From contig JAUNUL010000124.1 of the NCBI GenBank assembly GCA_030538175.1, positions 1 through 8,303 on the forward strand: a stretch of 8,303 nt of DNA. The letters run 5' to 3'. The notes beneath the pieces were generated by a model, which had not been told where the DNA came from, did no database searches, and saw nothing but the letters and a program-made list of their open reading frames with translations. Each line of letters starts with the position of its first letter. Within the stretch, counting starts at the first letter, position 1. Source of the DNA: Propionibacteriaceae bacterium (lineage in GTDB: Bacteria; Actinomycetota; Actinomycetes; Propionibacteriales; Propionibacteriaceae). This document shows, in pieces, positions 2,208 to 6,138 of this stretch. A program made the translations under genes and the position numbers.

Positions 2208-3124
2208 ATGAGCGTTCGTGTGCAGACCATTGCCCCCGCCCGCCCGTGGTCGTTGGTGATCCACGGCGGCGCGGGGGGACCGCAGACCGACGCGCGGCGA
2301 AGTCGTTCGATGCCTATCACGCTGGGCTGCGTGCAGCGTTTGAGGCCGGGGAGGCCGTGCTCGCCGGGGGCGGGTCTGCTCTCGATGCCGTCTGTGCAGC
2401 CGTCCGGGCATTGGAGGACAACCCCGTGTTCAATGCTGGCCGAGGTGCGGTGCTGGCAGCCGATGGCCGGGCCGAGTTGGATGCGTCGGTCATGACCGGC
2501 GACGGCCGCGCCGGGGCGGTGACGGTGTCCCGCTGGGCCCGCAATCCCGTTGAGTTGGCCAAGGCCGTTCGCCAGCACTCCCCGCACGTGCTGTTGGCCG
2601 ATCCGCCCCGATCGCTGCTGGCGACCTGGGATGTGGTGGAGGCAGAGGTTGGTTGGTTCGAGACCGCGCCCCGGGTGGAACAGTTGCGACGGCTCCAGGC
2701 GGAGTCGGCGGAAGGACCCCGGCATGGGACGGTGGGCGCGGTCGCGCTCGACGGTGCGGGTGCACTCGCCGCAGCGACGTCGACCGGTGGCATGGCGAAC
2801 AAGGCCAACGGCCGGGTCGGGGATAGCCCGATCGTCGGTGCCGGAACGTACGCCCGGGACGGCGTCGTTGCCGTGTCCACGACCGGCGAGGGGGAGGCGT
2901 TTCTGGCGGGGGTCGTCGCCCATGATGTGTACGCCCGGATGGCCTACGGGCAAGCCACCCTCGCGCGTGCGGTTGAGGCGACGTTGACAGCAGAACTGGG
3001 CTCCCGGGATGCGATGGGGGCGCTCATTGCCGTGGGCGCCGAGGGCCAGATCGTGGTGGGAACGCGCAGTGACACCCTGTTGGCGGCCTGGCGGGACGGT
3101 GACGAGATCGTCACGCGGATCTGA
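2208..3124 (+). pseudogene. Isoaspartyl peptidase/L-asparaginase (plant-type Ntn-hydrolase), frameshifted
   Basis: Plant-type (EcAIII/IaaA-like) asparaginase: the precursor cleaves itself before a threonine that becomes the N-terminal nucleophile, and the enzyme hydrolyses isoaspartyl dipeptides and L-asparagine. The conserved N-terminus WSLVIHGGAG is read from ATG 2208, but everything from SFDAYHAGL onward is one frame away. The switch falls at six G residues, 2273-2278; one more G would give HGGAGGTADRRAAKSFDAYH and a 305-residue protein of normal family length. Downstream features are intact: HGTVG with the nucleophile Thr at 2729-2731, TSTGGMANK, the substrate-binding GRVGDSP, and STTGEGE. 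The downstream frame is open back to 2129, but the residues before the break do not resemble the family, so a start at 2129 would be misleading. Only one position is damaged, so either a sequencing or assembly error in the G run or a recent inactivating mutation is possible. Slippage is conceivable but unsupported. Confidence 0.8.
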
Positions 3125-4245: not shown

Positions 4246-4971
4246 TCAGAACTGCTGGCAGAAACTGATGGGCGAGGAATAGTTGGAGCCGCCGCCACCC
4301 CCGTCGTTACCCCAGAGTCCACCGTTGCGTCGTTCGGCCTCGTAGTAGGCCTGGAGTATCGGCCGACAATAGGCGCGCATCTCCTGTTCGGCCGTCAGCG
4401 GGTTCTTTGCGACCAACTGCCGGAAGACGTCCACCGCCCTGCCCCTGTGGCCGCTGATCAGTTGCTCCGCACGTGCTCGCGCTGCTTGTTCCGCGTAGTA
4501 GCGATCGCGGTCGGCAGGATTGCCGGGGGCAGCGGTCTTGCCGCGTGAGAGTGCGTTCAGTTTGGCCCAGGTCTGGGGGCCGACGATGCCGTCGGTCTGG
4601 ATCCATCCGCGGCCCCCACCGGAGAATTTCTGGAGGGCGATGATGGCGTTCTTGGTGCGCGGGCCGAAGATGCCATCGGCGGTGATCTGCCCACCGATCG
4701 CCGGATAGGCGCGAGCCGCCGCGTTGTATTCACACTGCATCTGCTTCACCGCCGCGCCACGGGCGCCGGACTTCAGCAAGGGCTCAGCCGCCGAGAAATA
4801 GCAACCCCCGGCTCCGTTGGCCGCCTCAGCCTGGGGCAGCCCGACAAGGGCGCCTCCGGTCATCGCTACGGTCACTGCCAGGAGGGCATTGACTTCATTA
4901 ATGGAGAGATTGATTTCTCGAATAGTGAGAGGGTTCTGGCTCTGGCTTGCCCGGTCGCGGGCGGCTTGCAA
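4246..4971 (-). CDS. Secreted peptidoglycan-binding domain protein, start uncertain
   Basis: Probable exported cell-wall-binding protein. Numbering from TTG 4971 (241 residues), a hydrophobic stretch followed by the A-x-A site AEA|AN (about 30-51) looks like a signal peptide. A single PG_binding_1 domain follows (about 65-143), with TADGIFGPRTKNAIIALQKF and TDGIVGPQTWAKL as its paired helix motifs. A charged helical region (154-215) leads to a Gly-rich tail ending SFCQQF. Four cysteines (57, 80, 202, 238) could form two disulfides. No hydrolase motif is present, so it probably binds rather than cuts the wall. The TTG start is poor: no ribosome binding site, and acidic residues sit just before the hydrophobic core. 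ATG 4898 on the minus strand reads MKSMP in another frame; one extra C in the CCC at 4884-4886 would join it to LLAVTVAMTGG and give a normal signal peptide. The frame from about 4880 down to 4246 is secure; the N-terminus is not. Confidence 0.78.
   Translation of the reverse strand: MQAARDRASQSQNPLTIREINLSINEVNALLAVTVAMTGGALVGLPQAEAANGAGGCYFSAAEPLLKSGARGAAVKQMQCEYNAAARAYPAIGGQITADGIFGPRTKNAIIALQKFSGGGRGWIQTDGIVGPQTWAKLNALSRGKTAAPGNPADRDRYYAEQAARARAEQLISGHRGRAVDVFRQLVAKNPLTAEQEMRAYCRPILQAYYEAERRNGGLWGNDGGGGGSNYSSPISFCQQF
4889..4928. promoter_or_regulatory. AT-rich divergent promoter region (tentative)
   Basis: This short stretch is conspicuously AT-rich in a GC-rich window. On the plus strand TTGACT (4889-4894) resembles a -35, but the best -10-like sequences at 16-18 bases are weak; TTGATT (4910-4915) and TAGTGA (4923-4928) are other fragments. 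It lies ahead of the cysteine-rich leader on the plus strand. It also lies at or just upstream of the more plausible start (4898) of the minus-strand peptidoglycan-binding gene. A divergent promoter is the natural reading, but no complete promoter can be assigned. Confidence 0.3.
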
Positions 4972-4982
4972 GAGTCACTGCC

Positions 4983-5051
4983 ATGACCTCCACGCTCGAC
5001 GTCCGAATGCACACCCGCGCTGCCATGTGCTGCGCGTGTATGTGTCGCTGA
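4983..5051 (+). CDS. Cysteine-rich regulatory leader peptide (22 aa), candidate attenuator uORF
   Basis: A 22-codon ORF from ATG 4983 to TGA 5049-5051, ending MHTRAAMCCACMCR. Cysteine fills positions 16, 17, 19 and 21, four of the last seven codons, in a genome type where Cys is rare. It sits 73 bases before an ABC ATPase of the taurine/sulfonate/nitrate type. Short ORFs rich in Cys codons are established in mycobacteria as cysteine-responsive attenuators of downstream operons; by analogy, translation here would sense Cys-tRNA and the peptide itself would have no other job. The Shine-Dalgarno site is weak (AAGAG around 4969-4973), and internal ATGs at 5007 and 5025 could be the true start without changing the Cys block. 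The composition and position are seen; the function is inferred. Chance is possible, because a TGC/TGT-rich stretch this short has limited statistical weight. Confidence 0.6.
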   Translation: MTSTLDVRMHTRAAMCCACMCR

Positions 5052-5124
5052 CCCGTCGAGCCCGCATCGGGCATCCGGGCCCAGCGCCCACCACCCTGCT
5101 GTCCGTTCCCTTGGAGATCCCGTC
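5052..5124 (+). promoter_or_regulatory. Leader region with alternative hairpins and Shine-Dalgarno site of the ABC gene
   Basis: GCCCG at 5060-5064 can pair with CGGGC at 5068-5072 or with a second CGGGC at 5076-5080. CGGG at 5068-5071 can instead pair with CCCG at 5119-5122, continued by ATC 5073-5075 with GAT 5116-5118 across one bulge. That long-range pairing covers the end of the Shine-Dalgarno GGAG (5113-5116; 8 bases before ATG 5125). The two folds exclude each other, as in attenuators that respond to ribosome position on an upstream ORF. The pairings are direct base complementarity; regulatory meaning is inferred, and no T-run terminator is present. Confidence 0.4.
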
Positions 5125-5886
5125 ATGTCTTTCCCCACGCCTGCCCGTGCCCTGACCCTTGATCACGTGACCCTCGAGGTCCAGCGCCGCTGCGTCGAAG
5201 GCCGCCGACTCGGCATGCTGCGCGTGCTCACCGACTGCTCGTTGCACGTTGGTGTCGGCGAGATCCTCGCGGTGGTTGGTCCCGCGGGTTCTGGCAAGAG
5301 CGCGGTGCTGGATCTGCTCGCCGGGTTCGCGCACGCGAGCAGCGGTCAGGTCCTGGTCGATGGTCATGTGGTTGCCGGACCCTCCCCCGACCGCGGCTTC
5401 GTCCAGCCCTCGTATGGCCTGTTCCCCTGGCGGACCGTCCGGCAGAACGTGACGTTCGCGGCCGGAGCCGCGGGCGTACGCCGGGCCGATGCGGCCCTTG
5501 CGTTGGTCGGTCTGGCTGCGGTGGCGGATCGTCCGGTCGGGGACCTCACTGCGACGCAGAAACGACGGGTGTCCCTGGCCAAGGCGCTGGTGCACGACCC
5601 GGGCGTGCTGCTGCTGGACGATCCCTTCGCCGGTCTGGCGGATGCTGACCGGGTCGACCTGCAGGACGCCCTGTTGGGGATCCAGGCCGAGACCGGTGTG
5701 ACGGTCGTTATCGCCACCAGGAATGTCGATGAGGCTGTGCGCCTCGCGGATCGGGTGGCTGTGCTGTCACCCCTGCCCGGTCGCGTCGTGACGCAGGTTC
5801 CGGTCAACTCCGGTCGCCCGCACGCTGCCCGGCACGCGGTCTGGGCTGCGCTGGCCGGTGTTGAGGGGTACGCCGCCGCCGCTTGA
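5125..5886 (+). CDS. ABC transporter ATP-binding protein, taurine/sulfonate/nitrate type, degenerate motifs
   Basis: A 253-residue ABC ATPase closest in layout to the TauB/SsuB/NrtD group, which energises uptake of sulfonates, nitrate or similar small anions from the cytoplasmic face. Walker A is GPAGSGKS (52-59) with Lys58. The Q-loop is FVQPSYGLFPW (92-102), typical of this group, and Walker B is VLLLDD (161-166). C-terminal DRVAVLSPLPGRV also matches the group. Three catalytic sites deviate. The signature is LTATQ (141-145) where LSGGQ/LSGGM is expected, losing both glycines. Asp166 replaces the catalytic glutamate. Arg199 in ATRNVDEA replaces the switch histidine of THDVDEA. ATP binding looks preserved, but hydrolysis is probably impaired. 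GGAG at 5113-5116 supports the ATG. No permease or binding protein gene is adjacent: a long hairpin and a convergent gene follow. It may pair with components encoded elsewhere or act as a non-catalytic or regulatory subunit. The upstream Cys-rich leader hints at sulfur metabolism. Confidence 0.83.
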   Translation: MSFPTPARALTLDHVTLEVQRRCVEGRRLGMLRVLTDCSLHVGVGEILAVVGPAGSGKSAVLDLLAGFAHASSGQVLVDGHVVAGPSPDRGFVQPSYGLFPWRTVRQNVTFAAGAAGVRRADAALALVGLAAVADRPVGDLTATQKRRVSLAKALVHDPGVLLLDDPFAGLADADRVDLQDALLGIQAETGVTVVIATRNVDEAVRLADRVAVLSPLPGRVVTQVPVNSGRPHAARHAVWAALAGVEGYAAAA

Positions 5887-5916
5887 TGGGGCCGCGCTGC
5901 CTGAGTTGCATCGACC

Positions 5917-5978
5917 TTCCTACCTGACTCGGACGTTCCTACCTGTGTGTGGGTAGGAACGTCGGAGTTAGGTAGGGA
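5917..5978. repeat. Long imperfect inverted repeat, terminator-like or REP-like element
   Basis: Arms 5917-5943 and 5952-5978 form a 27-position stem with 24 Watson-Crick pairs, two G-T pairs and one mismatch (5931/5964), around the loop TGTGTGTG. Each arm carries the element ACGTTCCTACC or a close variant twice, so the whole has four copies of TTCCTACC, two per strand direction. It begins 30 bases after the ABC gene stop and lies on the 3' side of the convergent YibE/F gene. Termination is likely. The internal repetition suggests a dispersed palindromic element rather than a simple terminator. Confidence 0.7.
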
Positions 5979-6010
5979 CGTGGTGGTGGATCGCCCCTGG
6001 AAGGGCCCTA

Positions 6011-6138
6011 GCGGTCGAACCGGCGCTCAAAGCCAAGGCGGGGGTGGCCGAAACCACCACCTCGGTCGCGGTCGAACCGGCGCTCAAAGCCAAGGCGGGG
6101 GTGGCCGAAACCACCACCTCAGTCGCGGTCGAACCGGC
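6011..6138. repeat. 57-bp tandem repeat, about 2.2 copies
   Basis: Copies start at 6011, 6068 and 6125. The first two are full length and differ only at 6064 (G) versus 6121 (A); the third keeps 14 bases, GCGGTCGAACCGGC, then becomes unique coding sequence. The unit is 19 codons long, so it preserves frame. On the minus strand it would read RFDRDRGGGFGHPRLGFER over and over as a tail of the YibE/F gene, but TGA at 6119-6121 stops translation one codon into the repeat proper. Each full copy contains GGTGG-CCGAAA-CCACC (6043-6058 and 6100-6115), a small hairpin that may help end transcription from either side. Not a CRISPR: there are no spacers. Confidence 0.85.

Follow-up and report, generated by a model that had tools for sequence, protein, structure and literature searches.

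Polycysteine short open reading frames (ORFs) on leaderless transcripts reportedly act as attenuators in mycobacteria, as Canestrari et al. are said to have described in 2020. Propionibacterium acnes is a member of the Propionibacteriaceae, the family of the bacterium considered here. Cys leaders of the same design have been shown in M. smegmatis, according to the available parts of two reports (PMC9031893, PMC13236596). In 2005, Cys leaders had been proposed for the cys operons of Mycobacterium and P. acnes; in the accessible portion of that study, they are suggested to act together with Rho, a terminator hairpin being absent (PMC1262725).

The DNA analysed here, termed the window, is a stretch of 8,303 nucleotides from a Propionibacteriaceae bacterium. 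It contains a short ORF with clustered Cys codons upstream of a gene for an ABC nucleotide-binding protein. On balance, the comparisons described below favour the reading that this conserved 22-codon ORF is a cysteine-sensing leader, which would switch on the downstream gene by translational attenuation when charged Cys-tRNA is scarce.

The leader ORF

The features of the locus are collected in Table 1. In the window leader, Cys is encoded at codons 16, 17, 19 and 21, followed by Arg and TGA; the last seven sense codons hold four Cys. The distance from the end of the stop codon to the ATG of the ATPase gene is 73 nt. The original prediction had described the ORF, its stop, its peptide and this spacing in the same terms, and the presence of a Cys-codon short ORF before the ATPase gene is confirmed as a real observation. 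Although the frame extends further upstream, without a stop, to a TTG at 4947, all three genomes that carry the locus (see the next section) share the ATG at 4983 as a start. Among 115 short ORFs of 8–60 codons, counted on both strands of the whole window, the leader is the sole one with at least four Cys in its last seven codons, and a four-Cys end arose in 0 of 60 dinucleotide-preserving shuffles. The window leader has zero matches in NCBIfam and Pfam, and a search of the window with Rfam at the gathering threshold returned nothing.

Table 1. Features of the leader region and of its target gene; positions refer to the window
Feature	Position	Strand	Sequence or content	Remark
Conserved 22-nt block	4915..4936	+	TTCTCGAATAGTGAGAGGGTTC	Inverted repeat TCTC-N7-GAGA at 4916-4930
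Promoter-like elements	4947..4975	+	TTGCCC-N17-AAGAGT	End 7 nt before leader ATG; by eye
Cys-codon leader ORF	4983..5051	+	22 sense codons, then TGA	Peptide MTSTLDVRMHTRAAMCCACMCR
Stem A, 5' arm	4988..4992	+	CTCCA	Leader codons 2-4; complementary to ATPase ribosome-binding site
Stem B, 5' arm	4994..5000	+	GCTCGAC	Leader codons 4-6
Stem C hairpin	5016..5036	+	CGCGCtGC-catgt-GCtGCGCG	Cys codons in 3' arm
Stem B, 3' arm	5055..5061	+	GTCGAGC	3 nt past leader stop
Hairpin D	5060..5072	+	GCCCG-cat-CGGGC	By eye from sequence
ATPase ribosome-binding site	5113..5117	+	GGAGA	GGAGA in all three genomes
Orphan NitT/TauT-group ABC nucleotide-binding protein, degenerate catalytic motifs	5125..5886	+	253 aa	

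Conservation across the genus

Five genomes of the genus were compared, namely that of the window (G000) and four others (G001, G002, G003 and G004). The ATPase is found in three of them, G000, G001 (67% identity) and G003 (59%), and these three are also all the carriers among 198 genomes of the family; after them, the E-values of the family matches drop from about 1e-122 to 3e-60. Leader DNA was compared at these three loci only. At the corresponding place, G001 encodes MISRLDVRWLTRTALCSACMCR and G003 encodes MISLLATRVHTWSASRFMCMCAR, the latter being one codon (exactly 3 nt) longer. Start, stop, reading frame and a terminal C-M-C are common to all three leaders, and the number of Cys codons falls from four in the window to three in G001 and two in G003. 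In a search of the 198 family genomes with a profile of the three leaders, only these three scored below E 1e-11; the next match had an E-value of 0.0026. Matches at that level or weaker are regarded as chance, and at the eight such loci examined there was no Cys-rich leader before a sulfur gene.

Between the window and G001, 58 of 69 nt of the leader are identical, as are 22 of 24 in the Cys block and 42 of 58 at the start of the ATPase gene, with only 35 of 100 further than 160 nt upstream of the leader. The corresponding values for G003 are 41/69, 13/24, 34/58 and, far upstream, 34/100. The expectation of the original prediction, that the ORF, its Cys codons and its stop would be kept while the flanks drift, is borne out clearly for G001 and more weakly for G003. 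The differences between the window and G001 leaders are spread over the three codon positions as 4, 4 and 3. Because an excess at third positions is absent, what is retained in the leader may be its RNA sequence and not its codons. On these comparisons, strong constraint appears to lie on start, stop, ORF end and RNA pairing, and not on the peptide itself.

The upstream block and a possible leaderless start

The best-conserved piece across all three genomes is the 22-nt block, which starts 67–69 nt before the leader ATG in each of them. Its identity in the two relatives is 19/22 and 22/22, compared to about one third further upstream. Zero-mismatch matches to a degenerate pattern of the block occur only in the three ATPase-carrying genomes (3/37; 3/391 searched). 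Matches with two to three mismatches, seen in 39 further genomes, were set aside as chance, both for this reason and because a reversed control pattern also scatters matches. From its sequence, the block is likely a putative activator or operator site; its centre, near −60 if transcription begins at the ATG, would suit an activator.

Between block and leader lie promoter-like elements, identified by eye also in G003 (TTGCCC-N17-GAGAGT-N6-ATG) and G001 (TTGCCG-N18-TTGAGT-N7-ATG); a scan for the sigma-70 consensus gave no promoter match. In all three genomes, a −10-like hexamer, again recognised by eye, precedes the leader ATG by 6–7 nt. Since the promoter-like pair ends this close to the ATG, the sequence suggests a leaderless transcript that starts at or next to the ATG.

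RNA pairing and folding

Minimum-energy folds of the RNA from the leader ATG into the ATPase gene share one common plan in the three genomes. In a MAFFT alignment, both stem B and the ribosome-binding site were out of register in G003, and pairing was therefore scored on the individual fold of each sequence. Stem B, which joins the beginning of the leader to bases just past its stop, is GCTCGAC/GTCGAGC in the window and G001, and GCTCGCG/CGCGAGC in G003. Its seven pairs are standard in all 21 of 21 cells over the three genomes, with two pairs changed on both sides (that is, compensatory) in G003. Its predicted probability in the free RNA is 0.99–1.0 in each genome, and the chance of such a match within the first 30 nt past the stop, estimated by shuffling, is 0.0018, 0.002 and 0.008 for the individual genomes.

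Stem A has a pair probability of 1.0 in G001 and 0.99 in G003. The window fold contains it when 20 nt of ATPase coding sequence are included, and its probability there is 0.02 with 30 nt; in that longer fold, the ribosome-binding site is closed by pairing other than stem A. The third element, hairpin C, has a counterpart at the equivalent position of G001 (CGCACTGC-cctgt-GCAGTGCG); relative to the window, both partners of one pair differ there, and a T-T mismatch of the window is replaced by T-A. This G001 change costs one Cys codon (TGC to AGT, Ser) while preserving the hairpin pair. At this place, G003 has a longer, shifted hairpin.

Compared to shuffled sequences, the calculated folding energies are modestly lower (z −1.8, −2.2 and −3.5; 15, 5 and 1 of 300 shuffles were as low). 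The predicted accessibility of the ribosome-binding site in the free RNA is 0.14 in the window and 0.01 in both G001 and G003; the site is closed in all three, with robust closure by leader pairing in two (G001 and G003). With one ribosome placed on a Cys codon and pairing otherwise free, the values are 0.14–0.22 for the window, 0.01 for G001 and 0.09–0.30 for G003. When the RNA next to the ribosome is barred from pairing, or a second ribosome is queued at the start, they rise to 0.26–0.48 in G001 and 0.29–0.46 in G003; under neither assumption does the window site open (0.13–0.19). Placing the ribosome at the stop codon gives an equally open site (0.45–0.48 in G001, 0.42–0.43 in G003) as placing it at a Cys codon, so any discrimination between the two states would have to come from dwell time. 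Overall, the folding calculations support a switch only in part.

Cys leaders elsewhere in the genus and family

In two genomes of the genus, G002 and G004, a Cys leader precedes nirA, a sulfite-reductase-type gene (PF01077); the peptides are MTLRDVPFVVRRHVDLLLVASNLMCS and MRLNRVPFVVRRHVDLLRVASNQMCPR, respectively, and in both the ATG lies 7 nt past a TANNNT box. No Cys leader was found in the nirA upstream regions of G000, G001 and G003, where similar promoter sequence is retained (the upstream loci L307–L311 belong to G003, G004, G002, G001 and G000, in this order). The genomes with a leader on the ATPase gene are those without one on nirA (three versus two), a split that, judging from sequence, may reflect a single event in one branch.

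Across the family, leaders matching the NCBIfam model NF042934 were found at E 0.001 in 24 of 117 genomes, and were over the model's cut-off in 16. At 24 of 30 such loci, the downstream sequence was examined and genes were assigned by eye from N-terminal sequence; they included those for sulfite reductase, a TcyP-like symporter, YeeE, CysK and a TauE-like protein, with several loci lacking a convincing gene. The model (cut-off 27 bits) gave no hmmscan match to the window leader at E-values up to 10, although the HMMER filters drop most matches above 0.1, and at E 0.001 there was none in G000, G001 or G003. It also misses the sulfite-reductase leader of G002 and is therefore not exhaustive.

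Proposed mode of action

The cysteine-sensing reading can be set out in molecular terms. Transcription would begin at or beside the leader ATG. With plentiful cysteine, ribosomes would complete the leader and the RNA would refold; leader codons 2–6 would then pair with the bases after the stop as well as with the ATPase ribosome-binding site, holding the latter shut. When cysteine is scarce, a ribosome would stall at codons 16–21 with others queuing behind it; between them, stalled and queued ribosomes would hold the arms apart for longer, and the ATPase gene would be translated. This reading is favoured because G001 and G003 conserve the leader's start, stop, frame and terminal C-M-C; because stem B is conserved with two pairs changed on both sides; because the leader closes the ribosome-binding site in two of three free RNAs (0.01) and opens to 0.26–0.48 under added assumptions; and because Cys leaders of the same genus, with their ATG 7 nt past TANNNT, precede a sulfite-reductase gene in two genomes. 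What speaks against it is the variable number of Cys codons, together with the 4, 4, 3 spread over codon positions, the lack of a consensus promoter match, the low probability of stem A in the longer window fold, and the calculation in which the window site stays closed even with queued ribosomes while a ribosome at the stop codon opens the site equally well in the relatives.

Control might instead be exerted on transcription, with the short ORF sensing cysteine through Rho-dependent or some other transcriptional attenuation and without masking of the ribosome-binding site. Hairpin D is relevant in this context: it shares two bases with the 3' arm of stem B, and the two cannot both form in full, much like the alternative structures of attenuators. 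Counterparts were recognised by eye in G001 (GCCCC-cgtgt-GGGGC) and G003 (GCCC-ttcg-GGGC); the hairpin is absent from the full-length minimum-energy folds. There is no T run after it, and a scan of the region for intrinsic terminators found none, a result that would suit Rho, as would the only partial release of the ribosome-binding site in the folding calculations. For the comparable Cys leaders of cys operons in Mycobacterium and P. acnes, Rho was the factor proposed in the accessible portion of PMC1262725. Nevertheless, we consider transcriptional attenuation unlikely, as neither the conserved compensatory stem nor the complementarity between leader and ribosome-binding site is needed by Rho control.

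A further alternative dispenses with cysteine sensing altogether: the ORF would be incidental, and the region would owe its conservation to a promoter, to an operator (TCTC-N7-GAGA) and to structure in the 5' untranslated region. The even spread of leader differences over codon positions (4, 4, 3), the unequal Cys number in the three genomes, the 22-nt block being the best-conserved piece over all three, and the exchange of a Cys codon for Ser in G001 with retention of the hairpin pair are all in line with this. On the other hand, all three genomes preserve the frame, the start and the stop, with the G003 ORF longer by exactly 3 nt; none of the 60 shuffles gave a four-Cys end; and Cys leaders have repeatedly been predicted in this bacterial family. 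An incidental ORF is in our judgement a doubtful explanation.

The target: an ABC protein with degenerate catalytic motifs

The original prediction had called the target a taurine/sulfonate-type ATPase. This is only loosely right: the protein belongs to the NitT/TauT group, and its score against TauB, one of the two best NCBIfam models, is 161.9 bits for a cut-off of 357 (the other, NtrCD, gives 146.5 bits for 291.8). As none of the best 25 of 193 matched models reaches its own cut-off, the sequence places the ATPase in the NitT/TauT group and assigns it no substrate.

A search of 5.8 billion proteins gave 1343 matches, of which the best 120 were examined. The top eight of these group with the window ATPase (E up to 1.1e-59, 50–68% identity); excepted from this range is P0004, a 174-residue protein that is 99% identical to part of the window ATPase. 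Members of the group include proteins named after Granulicoccus sp. GXG6511 and a Propionibacterium sp. MAG. In a search of relatives' contigs, the top identity among the 80 relatives retained out of 230, from which the window's own and near genomes may be absent, was 46%, and no ortholog was found there.

The clade comprises eight full-length members, namely the window protein and seven others, and is degenerate in several motifs. Walker A (the P-loop) is present in all eight. In each of them, an LTATQ-like sequence stands in place of the LSGGM/Q signature, and the H-loop His is missing. The catalytic Glu after Walker B is replaced by Asp in seven of eight (P0009 has Glu), and the canonical Q-loop column contains Gln in none, with a Gln one residue earlier in five. 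By comparison, the other 112 homologs among the best 120 have the signature and the H-loop His in 111 cases and the catalytic Glu in all 112; the exception is P0048, which has neither signature nor His. This protein of 266 aa (52% identity over 72% of the query) is a more distant homolog that keeps the catalytic Glu, and its sequence suggests that it may represent an earlier offshoot of the degenerate clade. All eight full-length clade members also end in Ala-Ala, a feature found in 20 of the 112 other homologs of the best 120; we presume that this terminus resembles a protease-recognised tail.

Despite its degenerate motifs, the gene is, as judged from dN/dS values of about 0.23–0.32, under purifying selection. 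Structure prediction gives a complete NitT-type nucleotide-binding domain (pLDDT 90.7), and a PDB search with the predicted structure returned the CmpBCD and NrtBCD ATPases as best matches; prediction and search together confirm the ABC ATPase fold at the level of modelling, and nothing further. From the motifs, the product probably binds ATP but hydrolyses it inefficiently on its own, and would probably not power transport by itself. A partnership with a competent ATPase, or a role as an ATP-binding regulator, appears more likely.

Gene neighbourhood and possible partners

The ATPase gene is flanked by a divergent gene for a peptidoglycan-binding protein upstream and by a convergent gene for a YibE/F protein downstream; 'orphan' is thus an apt description within the window. 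Neither the window nor 18 kb of G003 showed a permease or binding-protein gene beside it, and none was seen on the G001 contig, which is 3 kb long; the yibE/F loci of G002 and G004 contain no ATPase gene. Some further features of the window may be mentioned here. Between the convergent ATPase and yibE/F genes, positions 5914–5981 hold a 30-nt inverted repeat (87% complementary, 8 nt between the arms), by its sequence a possible two-way terminator. Two tandem 57-nt copies, 98% identical and accompanied by an extra 14-nt partial copy, occupy 6011–6124 at the 3' end of yibE/F. An Asparaginase_2 gene (2208–3124) is split over two frames near 2270–2290, beside a G run, with its N-terminal WSLVIHGGAGG in a different frame from the remainder; this is either a real frameshift or an assembly error.

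Partners were sought in the genus through NMT1-type binding proteins and RibX-like permeases. In G003, they form five units, four with an adjoining ATPase; the one without is a RibXY-like pair behind an FMN riboswitch. The same pair, again with no adjoining ATPase, is present in G001. The G000 contig breaks off within the binding-protein gene of the pair, and an ATPase beyond the contig end is possible. G002 and G004, from which the orphan is absent, also have the pair without an adjoining ATPase, preceded by an FMN-element-like sequence recognised by pattern. The FMN riboswitches (Rfam RF00050) were located at L251:3591-3711, L254:3245-3398 and L259:1560-1703 (reverse strand); those of L251 and L254 precede a RibXY-like pair lacking an adjoining ATPase, and L259 ends inside the pair. 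A permease/binding-protein pair behind an FMN riboswitch matches the RibXY design set out in the available part of PMC4418817, where an associated ATP-binding gene is mentioned for a few Chloroflexi.

The pair is a weak candidate partner, since an FMN riboswitch precedes it and since it also occurs where the orphan is missing; RibXY may be served by the orphan but does not require it in G002 and G004. It is very improbable that the orphan is the missing ATPase of a RibXY riboflavin importer under FMN-riboswitch control, with the leader tying vitamin uptake to cysteine: the pair lacks an adjoining ATPase in G001 and G003, and in G003 (a single contig) is the sole ATPase-less unit of the five examined, but the sister genomes G002 and G004 have an ATPase-less pair yet no orphan, and the orphan is without catalytic motifs.

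Returning to the cysteine-sensing leader, the original prediction had interpreted it as a link between cysteine supply and the import of a sulfur source. Conservation of ORF, Cys codons and stop, together with a conserved stem bearing compensatory changes, lends support to the first half of this interpretation, with Cys clusters near the stop of the short ORF in the window (four) as well as in its relatives (three and two). The second half, import of a sulfur source by the target, finds no support: the models yield no substrate, no adjoining permease or binding protein was seen in the stretches covered, the catalytic motifs are lost, and the sole ATPase-less NitT/TauT-type permease/binding-protein pair found is the RibXY-like one behind an FMN riboswitch.

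Implications

Cys leaders are known before genes of sulfur assimilation; here, one with conserved RNA pairing precedes a gene that its sequence would label a transporter ATPase, although the product is probably not an ordinary one. For this otherwise unannotated pseudo-ATPase, the leader offers a clue to physiology, hinting at when the protein is needed. The sister genomes, with the leader on either the sulfite-reductase gene or the ATPase gene, offer a natural comparison for the movement of leaders between targets. A more far-reaching and speculative idea, which we think has only a small chance of being correct, is that in one branch of the Propionibacteriaceae, Cys-tRNA sensing was lost from the sulfite reductase gene and transferred to a catalytically dead ABC ATPase, which would now serve as a regulator in cysteine starvation: an on-demand ATP-binding pseudo-subunit that would dock on NitT-type transporters or other partners and set their activity.

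Comparison with known systems

On the side of the target, the NrtBCD and CmpBCD ATPases of the NitT group share the fold of the window ATPase (TM-score by query 0.77–0.83) at about 30% identity. In the alignment, signature, catalytic Glu and H-loop His are all intact in CmpD and NrtC and are replaced in the window ATPase.

On the side of the leader, the NF042934 (cis_reg_atten) leaders, of the type RRHVDLLRVASALCR, occur in the same family and genus; like the window leader, they are short actinobacterial peptides that contain an R-x-H element and have Cys close to their stop. Unlike them, the window leader lacks the HVDL core, has four Cys rather than mostly one to three (at the loci examined), and has a different target.

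The leaders proposed for the cys operons of Mycobacterium and P. acnes likewise have Cys runs near the stop and no terminator. The available portion of that study reports no conserved terminator hairpins and leaves the mode of regulation open (PMC1262725), in contrast to the bracketing stem with compensatory changes in the window. The mycobacterial attenuators, as far as the accessible parts of the reports describe them, resemble the window in their clustered Cys just before the stop, in the short gap to the target, and in the predicted masking of the target's ribosome-binding site through pairing with the leader. For them, according to the same parts, a cysteine response and a leaderless start have been shown, whereas both are putative for the window leader; moreover, their targets are loci of cysteine metabolism, whereas that of the window is an orphan, degenerate ABC ATPase in another bacterial family. 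By analogy, a Cys leader before an ABC ATPase gene fits the kind of translational attenuator shown in mycobacteria. No Cys leader on an ABC ATPase gene, or on one for a catalytically degenerate ATPase, was found among the open-access papers that literature searches listed. The logic of the Cys leader is already known; the ABC ATPase with degenerate motifs appears to be a new target for it.
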